Of a DNA stretch of 6,808 nt, positions 2 through 6,808 are shown piece after piece. The notes under the pieces are model-generated. The model saw only the letters and a program-made list of their open reading frames with translations, searched no databases and was not told the DNA's origin. Location of the stretch: NCBI GenBank assembly GCA_017411235.1, contig JAFPMR010000200.1, positions 1 to 6,808 of the forward strand, read 5' to 3'. The translations under genes were made by a program, and so were the position numbers. The DNA comes from Bacilli bacterium. GTDB lineage: Bacteria > Bacillota_I > Bacilli_A > RF39 > UBA660. Within the stretch, counting starts at the first letter, position 1. Every line of letters starts with the position of its first letter.

Positions 2-271
2 CCTGTTACATTTGTTGTAACTCCAGACAAAGGATATGTAATTGGAGTTATTAAAGTAACAGATGTTGATGGTAACGTTATTACATTTACTAAAGATGAA
101 TTAAAAGGTAATACATTTACAATGCCTACAGCAGATGTAACAATTGAAGTAGAATTCTTAGTAGAAAATGCTAAAACAGCAGATATAGCTATAACATTTA
201 TAGCTATAGTCGCTGGCTTTGCAGGAATAATGTATTTAACAAATAAAAAGAAATTAAAAGGAGTAGCATAA
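2..271 (+). CDS. C-terminal end of a membrane-anchored surface protein (InlB-like domain), 5' partial
   Basis: This is the last 89 codons of a gene that begins upstream of the window; the frame is open from base 2 to a TAA. The visible protein starts inside the same C-terminal domain found in the three following genes: a beta-rich module with GYVIGV, KVTD.DGN and FTMPTADVTIEVEF motifs, resembling the divergent InlB B-repeat family of Gram-positive surface proteins. It is followed by NAKTAD, a hydrophobic helix of about 18 residues, and a basic NKKKLK tail. It is a close paralogue of the gene at 1852-3300: the last 33 residues match except for one Gly/Glu change. I infer a single-pass anchor holding a large ectodomain outside the cell. 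The ectodomain is off-window, so its ligand and overall length are unknown. Confidence 0.9.
   Translation, partial: PVTFVVTPDKGYVIGVIKVTDVDGNVITFTKDELKGNTFTMPTADVTIEVEFLVENAKTADIAITFIAIVAGFAGIMYLTNKKKLKGVA
122..222 (+). repeat. 101-base block identical to 3151-3251
   Basis: These 101 bases are identical to 3151-3251, with mismatches immediately on either side. The block codes for the end of the InlB-like domain, the NAKTAD motif and most of the transmembrane helix. The preceding coding sequence (2-121) differs from its counterpart at many, mostly synonymous, positions. The contrast suggests recent exchange or duplication rather than protein-level selection alone. Confidence 0.9.
184..208 (+). 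repeat. Perfect inverted repeat within transmembrane-coding region
   Basis: The 10-base palindrome TATAGCTATA occurs at 184-193 and again at 199-208, separated by ACATT, so the segment can fold into a 10-bp stem. It encodes the repeated Ile-Ala-Ile of the membrane helix. The same arrangement recurs at 3213-3237, while the gene at 330-1745 keeps only one copy (1658-1667). It may simply reflect the repeated codons. Confidence 0.7.
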
Positions 272-283
272 GCTACTTTTTTT
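262..283 (+). terminator. Intrinsic terminator overlapping the stop codon of the first gene
   Basis: The stem AGTAGC (262-267) pairs with GCTACT (272-277) around the four-base loop ATAA, and the T-run spans 277-283. The TAA stop (269-271) lies in the loop and the last sense codons form the 5' arm. It separates this gene from the next one. Confidence 0.85.
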
Positions 284-324
284 ATTTTCTTAATTGTGTT
301 AAACTTATAGTAAGAAAGTAGGAG
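284..324 (+). promoter_or_regulatory. Candidate promoter region and RBS of the gene at 330
   Basis: Only about 45 bases separate the upstream T-run from the start codon, so any promoter must lie here. The best -10-like hexamer is TATAGT (306-311); an alternative is TG-T-TAAACT (297-305). No convincing -35 is visible, and its expected place runs into the terminator T-run. The ribosome binding site AGGAG (320-324) is clear, five bases before the ATG. The spacer has the same length as the one before the gene at 3359 and shares 46 of 58 positions with it. Confidence 0.35.
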
Positions 325-329
325 ATTAA

Positions 330-359
330 ATGAAGAAAAAACTTTACTTATTATTTGGT
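330..359 (+). repeat. 30-base 5' coding block identical to 1852-1881
   Basis: The first ten codons of paralogues 1 and 2 are identical at the nucleotide level. The rest of the signal peptide remains similar, and then the sequences diverge. This conserved 5' end, together with the conserved 3' ends, brackets the variable ectodomain. Confidence 0.9.
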
Positions 360-1745
360 CTAGTAATGTCATTGCTACTAGTAGGAATAGTAAAAGCCGA
401 AGGACCATACTTACTAGATTTTGAAACAGAACAAAAAGAACTATACGCAGGAGAAAATATACCATATAAAGATGGCTATCTAACATTTGATACGGATGAC
501 GATGATAATACGTATATTACAATGTATGATAGAACTGGAAATGTACTAAAAACTAAAAAATTAAGTAATAAAGAAGTACTACATGCCAGAGCAAAAGATA
601 ATGATATTTATATTATATACATGAAAAATGATAGCGGAAGTTCATTCTTAAGTCTTTTAGATGAAGATTTAGAAATAAAAGAAACTAAAGAATTAGGAGA
701 TGACTGGGGCTATAATTATGATTGCTACGTAAGAGATGGTGTAGAATATATTCGTATAACAGAAGATGAAGTATCTGTAGTAATAAATTATGGTCACTAT
801 TCTATTACAGCACTATTCACAAATAGAGATCTAACAAAAGATTTTGAAGAAAAAGAAATATCAGGAAAAAAAGAACTAAAAAAATATTATCCAGAATACT
901 ATGGAGCTTCAGTTGCATATGATATGTTAGATGAAAGTGTAAGACTTTTAAACTACAAAGATGGTTACTTAGCTGTCGAAGGATATGATTATTCTGCTTG
1001 CCCAGAATATGCTACTCCAAATAATCAAGATGGCCAAGTAACACATTGTTATAAACGAGTTATAGAATTAATAGATGTAGAAGAAGAAGAGGTATTGTGG
1101 AAAAAATACTTAGATAATTATGATGAAATCTACGAAGTAAGAATCTTAAATCAATATGTATCTACAGTTGTAGAATCATCTAATCAAACATCTATACTAA
1201 TCTATGATTTTGAAGGTAATTTAGTTCAAACTATTAAATCAAATAAGAATAGTTATTATTATAGATTACTAGAAACAAATAATGGATTCATAGTAGCTAA
1301 AACAACTTGTGAAGAGGTACTAGAACCTAGCGACCCAATTATTAATCATCAAGGCGGTGGAATGCGTCCGTGTTCAGCAAATCACGAAGTTTACTATCTA
1401 AACAAAAAGATAGATACAATAGTAACATCAGGAAAAGGTAAAGTAGAAGTAGCATCAGAACAAAGACCTGGTGAACCAGTAACATTTACAGTAATACCAG
1501 ATGAAGGATATGTAATTGGTGTTATCAAAGTAACTGATGCTAATGGTAATGTTATTACATTCACTAAAGATGAATTAAAAGGTAATACATTTACAATGCC
1601 AACAGCAGATGTAACTATTGAAGTAGAGTTCCTAGTAGAGAATGCTAAAACAGCAGATATAGCTATAGCATTATTACTAATACTAGCAGTACTATCTGCA
1701 ATAGTAATAGTAATAAATAAAAGAAAAATAATAGAATTAGAGTAG
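330..1745 (+). CDS. Membrane-anchored surface protein, propeller-like ectodomain plus InlB-like domain (paralogue 1)
   Basis: A 471-residue protein I do not recognise as a named family. Residues 1-23 form a type I signal peptide, with likely cleavage after VKA. Residues 24 to about 360 are an extracellular region where a strand-turn motif of hydrophobic, D/N, acidic and Gly/Leu residues recurs near 65, 109, 163, 247 and 291 (for example MYDRTGN and IYDFEGN), as in beta-propeller blades; the fold is inferred. C224/C240 and C327/C348 have counterparts in the next gene and could form disulfides. Residues 361-436 resemble the divergent InlB B-repeat. NAKTAD (438-443) precedes a membrane helix (about 444-462) and the tail NKRKIIELE. 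The ATG at 330 is preceded by AGGAG and begins the signal peptide. Adhesion, binding or sensing roles are possible; none is shown. The membrane helix differs from that of paralogue 2, although the N-termini match closely. Confidence 0.88.
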   Translation: MKKKLYLLFGLVMSLLLVGIVKAEGPYLLDFETEQKELYAGENIPYKDGYLTFDTDDDDNTYITMYDRTGNVLKTKKLSNKEVLHARAKDNDIYIIYMKNDSGSSFLSLLDEDLEIKETKELGDDWGYNYDCYVRDGVEYIRITEDEVSVVINYGHYSITALFTNRDLTKDFEEKEISGKKELKKYYPEYYGASVAYDMLDESVRLLNYKDGYLAVEGYDYSACPEYATPNNQDGQVTHCYKRVIELIDVEEEEVLWKKYLDNYDEIYEVRILNQYVSTVVESSNQTSILIYDFEGNLVQTIKSNKNSYYYRLLETNNGFIVAKTTCEEVLEPSDPIINHQGGGMRPCSANHEVYYLNKKIDTIVTSGKGKVEVASEQRPGEPVTFTVIPDEGYVIGVIKVTDANGNVITFTKDELKGNTFTMPTADVTIEVEFLVENAKTADIAIALLLILAVLSAIVIVINKRKIIELE

Positions 1746-1763
1746 TTTAACTACTCTTTTTTT
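1739..1763 (+). terminator. Intrinsic terminator overlapping the stop codon of paralogue 1
   Basis: GAGTAGT (1740-1746) pairs with ACTACTC (1750-1756) around a three-base TTA loop, with an extra A-T pair at 1739/1757, followed by a T-run at 1757-1763. The TAG stop (1743-1745) is part of the 5' arm. Confidence 0.88.
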
Positions 1764-1797
1764 ATGTAATATTTTGTAAACACATCGATTTCACATG

Positions 1798-1844
1798 TTT
1801 AAAAACTAACACCGAAGTGTTAAAATCTAAATATAGAGAGTAGG
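1798..1844 (+). promoter_or_regulatory. Candidate promoter and RBS of paralogue 2
   Basis: TTTAAA (1798-1803) is 17 bases from TAAAAT (1821-1826), matching the -35 and -10 consensus at four and five of six positions. A second -10-like hexamer, TATAGA (1832-1837), lacks a matching -35. The ribosome binding site AGTAGGT (1839-1845) has one mismatch to AGGAGGT. The leader before this gene is longer than, and unrelated to, the spacers before the other two paralogues. Confidence 0.4.
1807..1822. repeat. 16-base palindrome TAACAC-CGAA-GTGTTA, possible operator
   Basis: Two perfect 6-base arms flank CGAA. The palindrome sits between the candidate -35 and -10 hexamers of paralogue 2 and overlaps the first bases of the -10. 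No T-run follows, so it does not look like a terminator. This position suits a repressor operator. If transcription starts further upstream, it could instead form an RNA hairpin. Confidence 0.5.
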
Positions 1845-1851
1845 TAATAAA

Positions 1852-3300
1852 ATGAAGAAAAAACTTTACTTATTATTTGGTTTATTATTATCATTACTAC
1901 TAGTTGGAGTAGTAAATGCTAAAGGACCATATTATTTAGATTGGGAAACAGAAGAACAAGACAGATATGAAGTGCTCGGAAATATGCCATATAATGGAGG
2001 TTATCTAACAGTAGATCGAGATATTAGAGTATATACCCTTAAAACATATGATAAAACAGGAAAAGAATTAAAATCTAAAAAATTATTAGATTGTGATTTA
2101 GCTGATATTACAACATATGAAGACAAAATAATTACTGTCCTTGAAAACAATGACGGTTTGTTTATTCAAATACTTAACTCAGATTTAGAAGTTGAAAAAG
2201 AAAAAGAAATAACATCATTTGGTGTGAAATATTTCATCAGACTTGCTCATACAGCTATCTATGTAGATGCAAATAAAATAGCTATACCAACAAATGAAGG
2301 TATTGCAATTTATAATTATGACTTAGATCTAGAAGAAACAAAAGAACCAACAGACAAAAATATCAAAAAATACTTTCCTGATTATGCCAAAGGGGTTACT
2401 TTGTTAAAAGAGTATAACGATGGAAATACTTATGAAACAACTGCTTTAGGATATACAGACGGATATTCTGCTATAGCAGTATATGAAGATTTTCATACAT
2501 GTGCAAATTTTGTTTCACCATCAAATCCAGAAGGTACTGAATTAGTCCAACCTCTATTTGATGAAGATTGTGGAGAATACTCATTAAGATTACTAAATGA
2601 TGATGGAGAAAAGGAATGGTCAGTTAAAGTTCCTTCAGGAGAAGAAATTCAAGAAATAGAATTCTTAAATGGTCATATTGCTGCAATATCATATTCAAAA
2701 GTTTTAACAAAAATATATATCTATGATATGAATGGAGAATTATTACAAACTATTAGATCATCATTAGCATTTTCATCCTTAAGAAAAACAAACTATGGCT
2801 TTATAGTAACTCAAAATACTTGTGGATATCTTCATAGAGCTATCTTCAATGGAGAAATGGAAGAACCTGTAGGACCTGGAGGACAAAGATCAAAAGAAAG
2901 AATATCAGCTCAACCAGTAACTTACTGTGAAGGAAATCATCAAGTATATTATTTTAATAAAGAAATCAAAGCTGTCGTTACTGAAGGAAAAGGAAACGTA
3001 GAAGTAGCTAAAGAACAAAGACCTGGAGAACCAGTAACATTCGTTGTAACACCAGATGAAGGATATGTAATCGGTGTTATCAAAGTAACAGATGTTAATG
3101 GTAATGTTATTACATTTACTAAAAATGATTTAAATGGTAATACATTTACTATGCCTACAGCAGATGTAACAATTGAAGTAGAATTCTTAGTAGAAAATGC
3201 TAAAACAGCAGATATAGCTATAACATTTATAGCTATAGTCGCTGGCTTTGCTGGAATAATGTATTTAACAAATAAAAAGAAACTAAAAGAAGTAGCATAG
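1852..3300 (+). CDS. Membrane-anchored surface protein, propeller-like ectodomain plus InlB-like domain (paralogue 2)
   Basis: A 482-residue paralogue of the preceding gene. The first 30 bases are identical to those at 330-359. The signal peptide runs to about residue 23 (VNA, then KGP). The ectodomain (24 to about 370) carries the blade-like motif near 65, 107, 153, 247 and 290 (TYDKTGK, ILNSDLE, IYNYDLD, LLNDDGE, IYDMNGE). Cys pairs C217/C240 and C324/C359 align with those of paralogue 1, although the loop between the second pair is longer and unrelated. The InlB-like domain spans 371-447, NAKTAD 449-454 and the membrane helix about 455-472, with the tail NKKKLKEVA. The 3' end and downstream spacer match the partial gene at the window start, not paralogue 1, so the gene looks mosaic: its N-terminus resembles one neighbour and its C-terminus another. 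I infer an anchored exported protein; the ligand is unknown. Confidence 0.88.
   Translation: MKKKLYLLFGLLLSLLLVGVVNAKGPYYLDWETEEQDRYEVLGNMPYNGGYLTVDRDIRVYTLKTYDKTGKELKSKKLLDCDLADITTYEDKIITVLENNDGLFIQILNSDLEVEKEKEITSFGVKYFIRLAHTAIYVDANKIAIPTNEGIAIYNYDLDLEETKEPTDKNIKKYFPDYAKGVTLLKEYNDGNTYETTALGYTDGYSAIAVYEDFHTCANFVSPSNPEGTELVQPLFDEDCGEYSLRLLNDDGEKEWSVKVPSGEEIQEIEFLNGHIAAISYSKVLTKIYIYDMNGELLQTIRSSLAFSSLRKTNYGFIVTQNTCGYLHRAIFNGEMEEPVGPGGQRSKERISAQPVTYCEGNHQVYYFNKEIKAVVTEGKGNVEVAKEQRPGEPVTFVVTPDEGYVIGVIKVTDVNGNVITFTKNDLNGNTFTMPTADVTIEVEFLVENAKTADIAITFIAIVAGFAGIMYLTNKKKLKEVA
3151..3251 (+). repeat. 101-base block identical to 122-222
   Basis: This is the second copy of the identical block, in the 3' part of paralogue 2. 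It contains the same TATAGCTATA inverted repeat (3213-3237). Past one mismatch at 3252, a further 30 bases also match the first copy, and the similarity continues through the terminator into the spacer. Confidence 0.9.
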
Positions 3301-3312
3301 GCTACTTTTTTT
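3290..3312 (+). terminator. Intrinsic terminator overlapping the stop codon of paralogue 2
   Basis: AAGTAGC (3290-3296) pairs with GCTACTT (3301-3307) around the loop ATAG, with a T-run at 3306-3312. The TAG stop (3298-3300) occupies the loop. It is nearly identical to the terminator at 262-283. Confidence 0.88.
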
Positions 3313-3352
3313 ATTATCTTAATTGTGATAGAATTACTATAGGAAAGTAGGA
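3313..3352 (+). promoter_or_regulatory. Candidate promoter region and RBS of paralogue 3
   Basis: Two overlapping -10 candidates are visible: the extended form TG-A-TAGAAT (3326-3334), and TACTAT (3335-3340), which lines up with TATAGT before the gene at 330. No good -35 is present; the expected position overlaps the terminator T-run. The ribosome binding site AGGA (3349-3352) lies six bases before the ATG. The alignment with the spacer at 272-329 is gap-free. Confidence 0.35.
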
Positions 3353-3358
3353 AAGTTT

Positions 3359-4918
3359 ATGAAGAATAAATTATTATTTATCTTATTACTATTTATATCT
3401 TTTATAGGATATGTTAATGCTAAACCCGTAGAAAGTTTAGTACAAAGATGGGAAAAAACTTCTCAAACAATAAAAAGAGTAGATAATCTAGGTGATAGTT
3501 ATCTTGTCTTTAGTGAAAACAAAATAACTAAGTACTATAAAAACAAAACCAATGACATAGTAGAAAGAGAATTCGATTCATCTTCTTACTATCAGTTAGC
3601 ATTTGATGGTGAAAATATTTATTTATTTGTAAGCAGTGGATATAGTGCTAATAAATTCATGATACTAGATAAAAATCTAAATACTAAAAACTCTATGGAA
3701 TTAGATTTTGCTAACCTAACTTATTTTAATGTTGAAAACGGAACATATAAAATATTCTATCAAAATTCCGACAATTACGATTACACATTAATATATAAGC
3801 AATATAATTCAAAACTAGAATTAATAGATGAAAAAGAATTCCCAGTTGCTAATTTTGTACATTATAGAGGAAGTCAAAATGGTGCTATCTACTTTAATAC
3901 TTATGATAATAAAACATATAGATTTAATGGATCATTCCAAGAAGTATCGGCATCATCTATTCCTTTAAATCTTCCAATGGATGGTCTATGGAATAATAGA
4001 AGCGAAATCAATAATGACGAGCAAATAGATAGTCAAATATATGATAGAATATATGCTACTGAAACATTATCTAATCCAAGTGCAGAACTATTCCTTGAAG
4101 TAAAAAAAGATGGCGAAAATTATGTAGCATTATTCTATGAATCATTTAGTTCAGCGAATTCACATAGCTTTAAAATACCAGTTTATAGATCAACACTAAA
4201 ATACTTTGATAAAAATTTAAATGTAAAATGGAAAGTAGATTTACCTGAAGAAGCTACAGACGAAGGTATATGTGGTTCTACCAATAGAAGAACTCTATTA
4301 GATGTTTATGAAGGAAATATAGTACTTGCTTCTAATAGAAAAAATAAACAATTCTTAAAAGTATTTGATTCTAATGGAAAAGTCCTAAAAGACTTAAGTG
4401 AGGATATAGCAGCTTCTCCAAAACATGCTCCAATAGCTCTAAGTATTGAAGAAGACAATCTATTTATTGTTTATCAAGAAGGATACATGGAATGCATGTC
4501 AAAAAATGAAAACAATAACAAAATAATGCCAACATTCTTAGCAGATACATTAGAAGATAGACCTTCAGCATATATTTACTACTATGAAAGTAGATACAAG
4601 ATAGACACTGTAGTAACAGAAGGAAAAGGATCTATTAAAATAGAAAGCAGTAGTGCTGATAAAAATGAACCAGTAGAAGTTATTATTACACCAGATGAAG
4701 GCTATATACTTGGTGTAGTAAGAGTAATAGATGCAAATGGTAACGTATTAACATTTACTGATAATAAATTCACAATGCCATCATCTGATGTAACAATTGA
4801 AGTAGAATTCCTAGTAGCCAATGCTAATACAACAGATGTAGCTATAATGGTAGCTGTAGTATTATCAGCATTCGCTTTAATAATGCTAATAATAAGTAAA
4901 AAAGCAATAAAAGAGTAG
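3359..4918 (+). CDS. Membrane-anchored surface protein, propeller-like ectodomain plus InlB-like domain (paralogue 3, divergent)
   Basis: A 519-residue protein, the most divergent and longest complete family member. The signal peptide has likely cleavage after YVNA (residue 21). The ectodomain (22 to about 412) shares little direct sequence with paralogues 1 and 2 but repeats the same strand-turn motif near 59, 102, 148, 187, 282 and 335 (ILDKNLN, YFDKNLN, VFDSNGK), consistent with a propeller-like fold. Only two cysteines are present (C305, C379), so the conserved pairs of the others are not kept. The InlB-like domain (415-486) is recognisable by TPDEGY, GVVRVIDANGN and FTMPSSDVTIEVEF, and lacks about five residues before FTMP. 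The anchor motif reads NANTTD (488-493), then a helix to about 512 and the tail SKKAIKE. It is last in the array and probably diverged earlier, or under different selection. Function is unknown beyond a likely surface location. Confidence 0.87.
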   Translation: MKNKLLFILLLFISFIGYVNAKPVESLVQRWEKTSQTIKRVDNLGDSYLVFSENKITKYYKNKTNDIVEREFDSSSYYQLAFDGENIYLFVSSGYSANKFMILDKNLNTKNSMELDFANLTYFNVENGTYKIFYQNSDNYDYTLIYKQYNSKLELIDEKEFPVANFVHYRGSQNGAIYFNTYDNKTYRFNGSFQEVSASSIPLNLPMDGLWNNRSEINNDEQIDSQIYDRIYATETLSNPSAELFLEVKKDGENYVALFYESFSSANSHSFKIPVYRSTLKYFDKNLNVKWKVDLPEEATDEGICGSTNRRTLLDVYEGNIVLASNRKNKQFLKVFDSNGKVLKDLSEDIAASPKHAPIALSIEEDNLFIVYQEGYMECMSKNENNNKIMPTFLADTLEDRPSAYIYYYESRYKIDTVVTEGKGSIKIESSSADKNEPVEVIITPDEGYILGVVRVIDANGNVLTFTDNKFTMPSSDVTIEVEFLVANANTTDVAIMVAVVLSAFALIMLIISKKAIKE

Positions 4919-4937
4919 ACAGAAAGTCTACTTTTTT
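4914..4937 (+). terminator. Intrinsic terminator overlapping the stop codon of paralogue 3
   Basis: AGTAGAC (4914-4920) pairs with GTCTACT (4926-4932) around the loop AGAAA, followed by a T-run at 4932-4937. The TAG stop (4916-4918) is inside the 5' arm. The AGTAG/CTACT core is shared with the other terminators of the array. Confidence 0.88.
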
Positions 4938-5068: not shown

Positions 5069-5563
5069 ATGCTAAAAATAGATACATTCGAATCATATAC
5101 CAAAGATATAACAAATAATGATCATTTTAAGAAACTTAAAAATGAATTACATCATGGTATCTCCAGATATGAACATAGTATGCGTGTAGCTCGTTGGACT
5201 TATAAAATCTGTAATCTATTTAAATTTGATAACACAGAAGAAGTAACAAGAGCAGCTCTATTACACGATTTTTATATAAATGATGACTTAGAAACTAATG
5301 GTGGACCAAAAGCTCTAGTAGAACATCCAAGAGTAGCATTACAAAATAGTAAAAAATATTTTGCAATCAATGATATTCAAGAAGACGTAATCGTTCATCA
5401 CATGTTCCCATGTAATCTAAAACTTCCTGAATCAAAAGAAGCCTTCTTAGTATCATTAGTAGATAAAGGAGTATCTACATTTGAAATGTTAAGATTTAAA
5501 GCTCCTTTATATGCTTCTATCTATTTATTATTTATGTTCGAACTAATAAAAATATCAAGATAA
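5069..5563 (+). CDS. HD-superfamily metal-dependent hydrolase (uncharacterised)
   Basis: A 164-residue soluble protein with no signal peptide, so probably cytoplasmic. The HD pattern is clear: H36 in RYEHSMRVA, H66-D67 in ALLHDF, H86 in EHP, H110-H111 in VHHMFP, and D132 in LVDK. The extra histidines between HD and the last Asp resemble the ligand set of binuclear HD enzymes. HD proteins are generally metal-dependent phosphohydrolases acting on nucleotides or phosphoesters; the substrate here cannot be read from the sequence. There is no GYP motif, and no RelA, kinase or PAS region. The C-terminal part (about 146-162) is hydrophobic and may complete the helical fold or form a membrane-facing helix. 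It stands alone between two terminators with its own promoters, so it is not cotranscribed with the surface genes by this evidence. It is confidently an HD protein, but the precise subfamily is uncertain. Confidence 0.9.
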   Translation: MLKIDTFESYTKDITNNDHFKKLKNELHHGISRYEHSMRVARWTYKICNLFKFDNTEEVTRAALLHDFYINDDLETNGGPKALVEHPRVALQNSKKYFAINDIQEDVIVHHMFPCNLKLPESKEAFLVSLVDKGVSTFEMLRFKAPLYASIYLLFMFELIKISR

Positions 5564-5588: not shown

Positions 5589-5617
5589 TTGACGAAATAA
5601 CAGATAAATAATATAAT
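5589..5617 (+). promoter_or_regulatory. Near-consensus housekeeping promoter of the LRR-transglutaminase gene
   Basis: TTGACG (5589-5594) and TATAAT (5612-5617) are separated by exactly 17 bases, the best promoter in the window, placed just after the preceding T-run. The expected start is near 5624, about 20 bases before the ATG. This suggests strong sigma-A-type expression. Confidence 0.8.
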
Positions 5618-5630
5618 AACACCCTATGAA

Positions 5631-5637
5631 AAGGGGG
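5631..5637 (+). promoter_or_regulatory. Ribosome binding site of the LRR-transglutaminase gene
   Basis: AAGGGGG lies six bases before the ATG at 5644 and supports that start. It is purine-rich but differs from the AGGAGG consensus by its run of G. Confidence 0.65.
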
Positions 5638-5643
5638 ATTATT

Positions 5644-6808
5644 ATGAAAAAGCATAAAGGAGCTAAAACAATAGTAGCTACTTTATTATTGTGTGGAGCT
5701 TTAACAGTAGCTCAAAATGCTTATACTTCAAGCTTAACACCATATACTAAAGAAGATATAGCTAATACTAAAGCTTATGTAACAACACTAGAAGAACTAC
5801 AAACTACTGAAGAATTAAACTTTAGTAATCAAGAACTATTATCATACTTTAATAGTTCCTTAGATTCCCCATTAACTTTAGAAAAAGCAAGACAAATTAC
5901 TAAGTTAGAAATTGATTGCGAATTAAATAATCCTGATCTTAGTGACTTAAAATACTTTACTAACTTACAAGAACTTAAAATAACCAATGCTAATATAGAT
6001 TTAAAAGACTTAGAATATAATCAATCATTAAAAGAACTAACTATCATAGCATCTAAAATAACTAATACTAATCATCTACCTAATAGTATTACTAGTTTAA
6101 CTATATTCTATAGTACTGTAGAAGATGACTTATTATATCTACCATATCATTTAGAATCATTATCTTTATACCAAGCAGGATTTACTAACATAAAACCTAA
6201 AGGCACAGAAGACTTATTCTATGTTCATATAGATAGTAACTTATGTAAGGTAGATTTATCATTCTTAAAAGACTGTCCTAAACTATTTGATGTAACTATT
6301 AAGACCTGTCCTAACATAGTTCATCCAGAAGTCTTAGCACAGTTACCAAAACTATGTACAGTTCACTTAGATGATTATGCACCAGTTTGGTTAGATCATA
6401 ATACTTTAAAAGATATAAAAAAATTAGATGCTGAAGAATATCTAACTAGTGAAGTAGAATACTTAGATAAACTAGCATTTGAATTAGTACCAGATCCTAA
6501 TGTAGATGATCTAACTAAAATAAAAGCAATATCTAACTATATAATCAAACAATTAAACTATTCAGTAGATATCATTGAAGAAACTGATAGATACGATGAA
6601 GTATCTAAAGTATTAAATGAATATCCTTTAAGATATGCTCTTAATCTAAATGATGACTATGAAGAAGTATGTATAAACTATGCTTGTCTATTCCAAGCTC
6701 TAGCTAATAGAGTTGGTCTAGATAGTACTCAATTAATGAGTAATGGTCATACATGGAATCAAATAGGAGATAAGTATATTGACTTAACATCTTTAGATGG
6801 AGCAGTCT
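5644..6808 (+). CDS. Secreted leucine-rich repeat protein with transglutaminase-like domain, 3' partial
   Basis: The frame is open for 388 codons to the window end, so the C-terminus and any anchor are missing. Residues 1 to about 23-26 form a signal peptide (MKKHKGAK followed by a hydrophobic core). About eight leucine-rich repeats follow, with LxxLxI-type cores starting near 85, 108, 129, 149, 170, 191, 214 and 237, spaced 20-23 residues. A helical linker (about 243-285) leads to a transglutaminase/protease-like domain. DDLTKIKAISNYI (288-300) matches the usual entry helix, C343 in EVCINYA is the expected nucleophile, H369 in GHTWN the histidine, and D380 in YIDLTS the acid. In this superfamily the triad supports peptide-bond hydrolysis or amide crosslinking; which applies here is unknown. 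It has its own strong promoter. LRR arrays usually mediate binding, so this is plausibly a surface or secreted enzyme directed to a partner. Confidence 0.88.
   Translation, partial: MKKHKGAKTIVATLLLCGALTVAQNAYTSSLTPYTKEDIANTKAYVTTLEELQTTEELNFSNQELLSYFNSSLDSPLTLEKARQITKLEIDCELNNPDLSDLKYFTNLQELKITNANIDLKDLEYNQSLKELTIIASKITNTNHLPNSITSLTIFYSTVEDDLLYLPYHLESLSLYQAGFTNIKPKGTEDLFYVHIDSNLCKVDLSFLKDCPKLFDVTIKTCPNIVHPEVLAQLPKLCTVHLDDYAPVWLDHNTLKDIKKLDAEEYLTSEVEYLDKLAFELVPDPNVDDLTKIKAISNYIIKQLNYSVDIIEETDRYDEVSKVLNEYPLRYALNLNDDYEEVCINYACLFQALANRVGLDSTQLMSNGHTWNQIGDKYIDLTSLDGAV

Follow-up and report, generated by a model that had tools for sequence, protein, structure and literature searches.

Four neighbouring paralogous genes (g1 to g4) occupy positions 2-4918 of the plus strand in a 6,808-nucleotide stretch of DNA from a Bacilli bacterium (GTDB order RF39; contig JAFPMR010000200.1), which was analysed over its whole length (the window; G+C content 28.4%). 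In every copy the C-terminal end consists of a divergent InlB B-repeat domain followed by an N-x-x-T anchor motif and then by a membrane helix and basic tail. In addition, g2-g4 are each equipped with a start, a ribosome-binding-like sequence and an N-terminal hydrophobic leader of their own; the leader was assessed as a signal peptide by eye only (Table 1). Against the Pfam gathering cut-off of 23.6 bits, the B-repeat family PF18998 scored 33.2 in g2, 28.2 in g3 and 23.7 in g4, and 20.8, below the cut-off, in the truncated g1. BLASTP related g3 to g2 over the full length (43% over 503 columns, E 7e-104), while the best piece shared by g3 and g4 (37% over 218 columns, E 5e-34) lay mainly in the C-terminal half; both likenesses are well beyond chance. 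Between g2 and g3, amino acid identity was 80% over residues 1-25 and only 37% for the ectodomain, with 82% for the InlB part and 57% for the final 42 residues; pairs involving g4 had 21-24% for the ectodomain and 56-57% for the InlB part. A preliminary description of this DNA had called the locus a tandem set of plus-strand paralogues with signal peptides on three copies, conserved ends and diverged ectodomains, running off the left edge of the contig, and all of this was upheld. Its further claim, one terminator per gene, held on the plus strand for g1, g2 and g3, while for g4 the scan listed a hairpin at the gene end on the minus strand only; across all strands of the window, 8 terminators were found versus 1.4 +/- 1.1 in shuffled sequences. 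Promoter-like sites in the window numbered 26, below the shuffles (44.5), and none was listed in the spacers before g2 or g4. The 89 residues of g1 exactly match the C-terminus of P0003 (486 residues, encoded on another contig), which makes it probable that a complete version of g1 exists.

Table 1. Features of the paralogue array, in window coordinates (ORF, open reading frame; aa, amino acids; pLDDT, predicted local distance difference test; pTM, predicted template modelling score)
Feature	Position	Strand	Description
g1	2..271	+	ORF 5' open, cut by contig edge; C-terminal 89 residues: InlB part, NAKTADIAI, membrane helix, basic tail
Terminator-like hairpin spanning g1 stop	255..284	+	Terminator scan
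g2	330..1745	+	471 aa: signal peptide, ectodomain, InlB B-repeat, NAKTADIAI, membrane helix
g2 Cys-bracketed loop 1	999..1049	+	Residues 224-240; loop alignment
g2 Cys-bracketed loop 2	1308..1373	+	Residues 327-348; loop alignment
Terminator-like hairpin spanning g2 stop	1739..1757	+	Terminator scan
g3	1852..3300	+	482 aa, architecture as g2; predicted propeller, mean pLDDT 83.7, pTM 0.77
g3 Cys-bracketed loop 1	2500..2571	+	Residues 217-240; loop alignment; pLDDT <50 at 228-235
g3 Cys-bracketed loop 2	2821..2928	+	Residues 324-359; loop alignment; pLDDT <50 at 329-353
g3 divergent InlB B-repeat (PF18998)	2974..3186	+	Residues 375-445; Pfam
g3 anchor motif NAKTADIAI	3196..3222	+	Residues 449-457
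Terminator-like hairpin spanning g3 stop	3284..3313	+	Terminator scan; near-copy of g1 hairpin
g4	3359..4918	+	519 aa, most diverged copy; predicted propeller, mean pLDDT 77.3, pTM 0.72; motif NANTTDVAI
Hairpin at g4 end	4914..4932		Scan lists minus strand only; plus-strand T run after hairpin seen by eye

Structure models were made for g3 and g4, and both ectodomains were predicted to be beta-propellers despite their strongly differing middle regions, with a propeller match in structure comparison. These predictions agree with the propeller-like character proposed earlier, and the two copies fell into the same fold class rather than giving the unrelated folds that had been named as an argument against diversification. 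In the 43-row family alignment, length varied most at g3 loops 214-240 (3-50 residues, standard deviation (s.d.) 10.6) and 323-359 (3-82 residues, s.d. 20.3), the third most variable loop having an s.d. of 7.5. At least two cysteines were present in loop 214-240 in 39 of the 43 rows and in loop 323-359 in 40, with cysteines in at most 2 rows in other loops, and the low-confidence stretches of the g3 model coincide with these two Cys-bracketed loops. By strand order, each sits between strands two and three of its blade, which would place the pair on one face of the propeller. The two are read as display loops clamped by putative disulfides. Loop 1 was also rich in variable sites among 32 Coprovivens proteins (463 residues), with 7 of 10 sites variable versus 76 of 325 (p 0.003); in the same set the per-site variability of the ectodomain did not significantly exceed that of the C-terminal part (83/335 vs 18/105, p 0.11). 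It is possible, if rather doubtful, that the propellers are instead structural or enzymatic parts associated with the wall, akin to a BamB scaffold or a lyase, with loops that merely tolerate insertions. The Cys-bracketed loops and the multiplication of the genes in arrays suit display better, however, and a profile search against PDB sequences gave no match to a solved protein below E 0.14. BamB was not among the matches of that search up to E 1, the likeness to it being one of fold only, and no sequence relation to BamB or to the secreted propeller YxaL was found; we know of no wall anchor, B-repeat or Cys-bracketed loops in either.

Like known PF18998 proteins, g2 to g4 carry one B-repeat above the Pfam cut-off beside the anchor. 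In internalins the B-repeat is preceded by leucine-rich repeats (LRRs), whereas in g3 and g4 a predicted propeller takes that place; no Pfam LRR model matched g1-g4 up to E 1, and an LRR-like match (E 0.027, below its cut-off) fell in a separate gene at 5626-6807. The anchor motif kept its N and T throughout the 43 aligned rows, with D at position 6 in 39 and, at position 2, A in 22 (window genes included) and P in 21. With substrates of class B sortases the window proteins share a signal peptide, N-x-x-T, a helix and a basic tail, but they have N-A-x-T and not N-P-x-T; the classical class B motif is NPQTN, and A in place of P recalls the LAXTG of class E sortases. Sortase matches were present in all six checked genomes with family hits. 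Class B sortases are encoded by the relatives G001 (Candidatus Coprovivens excrementavium) and G002, as read from metagenome-assembled genomes that are possibly incomplete; more tellingly, in G002 this was the single sortase match, and the family proteins of that genome carry NPDTKD and NPETID. Elsewhere in G001 (L045:126-1893), a sortase of another class adjoins a pilin-like protein bearing its own anchor end.

A search with g3 (7996 candidates scored) returned 54 proteins, 39 of them covering at least 93% of the query, while P0051-P0054 matched over 16% only. Eighteen of the 54 share the size of their longest contig with another homologue, forming 7 groups of 2-4 (31713, 27598, 11988, 8209, 6166, 6143 and 3559), and these equal sizes suggest further arrays. 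The family profile matched 13 of 193 sampled genomes from the family of G001 at E 1e-10, many in the C-terminal part only, and tandem sets of two, five and two genes were found in G001, G029 and G155, respectively; NCBI taxonomy places Coprovivens in Bacilli incertae sedis. A contig scan with g3 alone as query returned nothing, and one with the alignment returned 24 loci, L001 being the only full-length match. Phage records gave no match at E 1e-5, viral contigs gave one locus matching the C-terminal part only, none of five proteins matched a PHROGs family at E 0.001, and Rfam gave no match. NCBIfam gave no useful name for g1-g4; its weak matches to type IX sorting domains, of which one exceeded its cut-off (TIGR04183 on g2, 24.2 vs 23 bits, with no single stretch passing), were rejected because the matched stretches sit on predicted propeller strands and type IX secretion is a trait of Bacteroidota. 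The propeller family is without a name in the libraries searched, in line with the earlier failure to recognise the architecture as a named system, and a literature search of listings and the openings of abstracts yielded no description of it.

Several observations indicate that anchor ends and outer parts probably recombine, both in the window and among Coprovivens homologues. Along the tail, nucleotide identity between g1 and g3 climbed from 81% to 91% and 98%, with the likeness continuing into the terminator and spacer, and equal codons among equal residues rose towards the 3' end from 3/7 to 28/34 and 36/38. Of 46 sites pairing g1 with g2 or g3, 6 and 7, respectively, lay before codon 40, and 0 and 33 after it (permutation p 0.004, with 12 sites grouping g2 with g3 excluded), a signal to which a shift in constraint around the membrane helix may contribute. 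In relatives, the ends of the G001 tandem pair were at 97% and 95% versus 30% for the ectodomain, those of G029 genes a and b at 84% and 90% versus 32%, and those of the G155 pair at 57% and 86% versus 37%; in pairs involving gene e of G029 the ends were not markedly more alike than the ectodomain. The ectodomain of P0039 does not align with the family, while a 35-residue InlB stretch is identical to g2, pointing to reuse of the anchor end with another ectodomain.

For Coprovivens, 37 proteins were compared (L001 together with the 36 proteins, among the 41 of P0060-P0100, that passed a length filter). Their C-terminal part occurs as two block alleles, present in 24 and 13 proteins, and the ectodomain tree requires 8 changes between them, of which 6 or more are forced by starred branches; shuffled alleles required 10.8 changes on average, and 8 or fewer sufficed in 24 to 28 of the 500 shuffles. 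Each allele is found with either state of a second block (16, 8, 8 and 5 proteins). Between L001 and P0081 there are 5 differences in 358 ectodomain residues and 14 in 105 C-terminal ones (p 1.9e-6), whereas L001 and P0071 show 61 ectodomain differences and 1 C-terminal difference (p 1.0e-6), both pairs being the best of all same-length pairs and both p values uncorrected. Under plain duplication and divergence, without exchange between copies, the C-terminal likeness would be kept by purifying selection for anchoring. The better conservation of the InlB and anchor parts across the family is as expected from such selection, and the lipid kinase flanking the Coprovivens locus is itself at only 82-88% to its nearest relatives (six clusters, among 120 of 178 matches listed). 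An excess variability of the Coprovivens ectodomain is therefore not shown, and the protein set may span several species. The rise in same-codon use between g1 and g3, the passage of their likeness through the terminator, the contrasting differences of L001 from P0081 and P0071 and the occurrence of two linked blocks in each of the four possible combinations nevertheless argue against divergence alone, which we consider unlikely.

The array is best read, with a probability of roughly 0.6, as a set of wall-anchored propeller display proteins that were duplicated, diverged in their outer parts and exchanged their anchor ends. Each protein would be exported by its signal peptide, would be cleaved at N-A-x-T and joined there to the wall, most likely by a class B-like sortase, and would display at its tip, on an InlB-type stalk domain, a predicted propeller bearing two cysteine-clamped variable loops. 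The array would have grown by tandem duplication followed by divergence of the outer parts, with recombination swapping the 3' ends (InlB part, motif, helix and terminator) between copies, and the loops may mediate adhesion or ligand binding under selection for diversity. Conserved borders, variable middles and mosaic 3' ends would also fit a cassette system for antigenic variation with one expressed copy and silent donors; this is very improbable, as g2-g4 are complete, each with start, signal peptide, ribosome-binding-like sequence and terminator-like hairpin, and none looks silent.

A number of points weigh against the display and exchange interpretation. The window motif has A at the class B position of P, no sortase was seen within the window, and sortase genes are so common in the family of G001 (173 of 193 genomes, and all 13 that have a family hit; p 0.37) that their co-occurrence does not discriminate. 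In g4 and its two nearest relatives, two loops have a single cysteine each and no bracket, and among the 32 Coprovivens proteins loop 2 was not clearly enriched in variable sites (8 of 18; mean entropy 0.119 vs 0.167 for the ectodomain); that the loops bind ligands is something we infer. Among the 12 g2/g3 sites left out of the breakpoint test, all 9 in the first part favour no simple history. Assembly of metagenomes can create chimaeras that resemble mosaics, although clusters hold up to 59 member sequences (P0081), which speaks against one assembly error as the source. Finally, P0001, from another assembly, differs from g3 at 5 of 482 residues (99% identical), which speaks against rapid variation between strains. 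The suggestion in the preliminary description of a surface repertoire varying between strains was not supported, and its proposal of an origin by duplication and diversification stood with respect to tandem arrays in relatives and mosaic ends, not with respect to array variation between strains.

A different, possible source of variation was found in relatives. All five genes of the G029 array (L060:3133-11514, C25), of which the family profile detected four through their C-terminal part, are preceded by TTGACA, a G tract of 8-10 and TATAAT, with spacers of 15-20, and these promoters are likely switched by slippage. Eight G followed by TATAAT within 4 bases occurred in 26 of the 193 genomes (overlapping matches counted), versus 2, once each, in the reversed control; the full TTGACA/poly-G/TATAAT arrangement occurred in 69 of 385 sampled genomes of the order of G001 (loci L064-L120), with up to 35 sites in one (G214) and none in the reversed control. 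Tracts at 61 sites in loci that were inspected were 7 to 16 long, and the 45 sites whose -35 element had 5 or 6 matches had spacers of 15 to 20. An ORF was found at 43 sites, with a hydrophobic N-terminus in 32, compared with 38 of 88 background ORFs (p 0.0008) drawn from nine loci, the G029 array among them; the downstream ORFs often encode apparently exported products, and some are pilin-like. Several assemblies start at the G tract, and two-colour sequencing can yield G runs; the fixed promoter spacing and single orientation mean that such an artefact hardly explains the tracts. The window lacks a poly-G promoter, its longest G run being 5, and none was found in G001 or G002, nor upstream of the family copies examined. 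A literature search combining RF39 with phase variation found no paper.

It is tentatively conceivable, if on balance unlikely, that these features form a contingency system in an order of uncultured gut Bacilli, in which recombination would shuffle outer parts anchored by N-A/P-x-T (in one family, two-loop propellers) between anchor ends, while part of the order would also switch such genes and other exported ones by poly-G changes in -35/-10 spacing, the window representing the recombining and not the poly-G-switched branch. Phase variation through a poly-G promoter is described for Neisseria PorA (PMC3639595), and a poly-G tract in the promoter spacer is shared with PorA by all five G029 array genes, not by the window. 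What appears to be new here is the concentration of ectodomain length variation and cysteines in two Cys-bracketed loops, the occurrence of the anchor motif in N-A and N-P forms together with a class B enzyme as the sole sortase detected in one relative, and the recombination of anchor ends with outer parts. If true, a clamped-loop propeller family and a widespread promoter switch would explain surface variation in little-known gut Bacilli; the sortase specificity for N-A-x-T is directly testable, and phase variation at the poly-G promoters could be tested in these uncultured bacteria from long reads alone.

Downstream of the array, an HD-domain protein of 164 residues (PF01966, 28.8 bits) is encoded at 5069-5563, between g4 and the LRR-like gene. 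The latter, an ORF open at its end in the window, has a secreted-looking product that also gave weak transglutaminase-like matches, and is preceded by a near-consensus promoter at 5589-5617.
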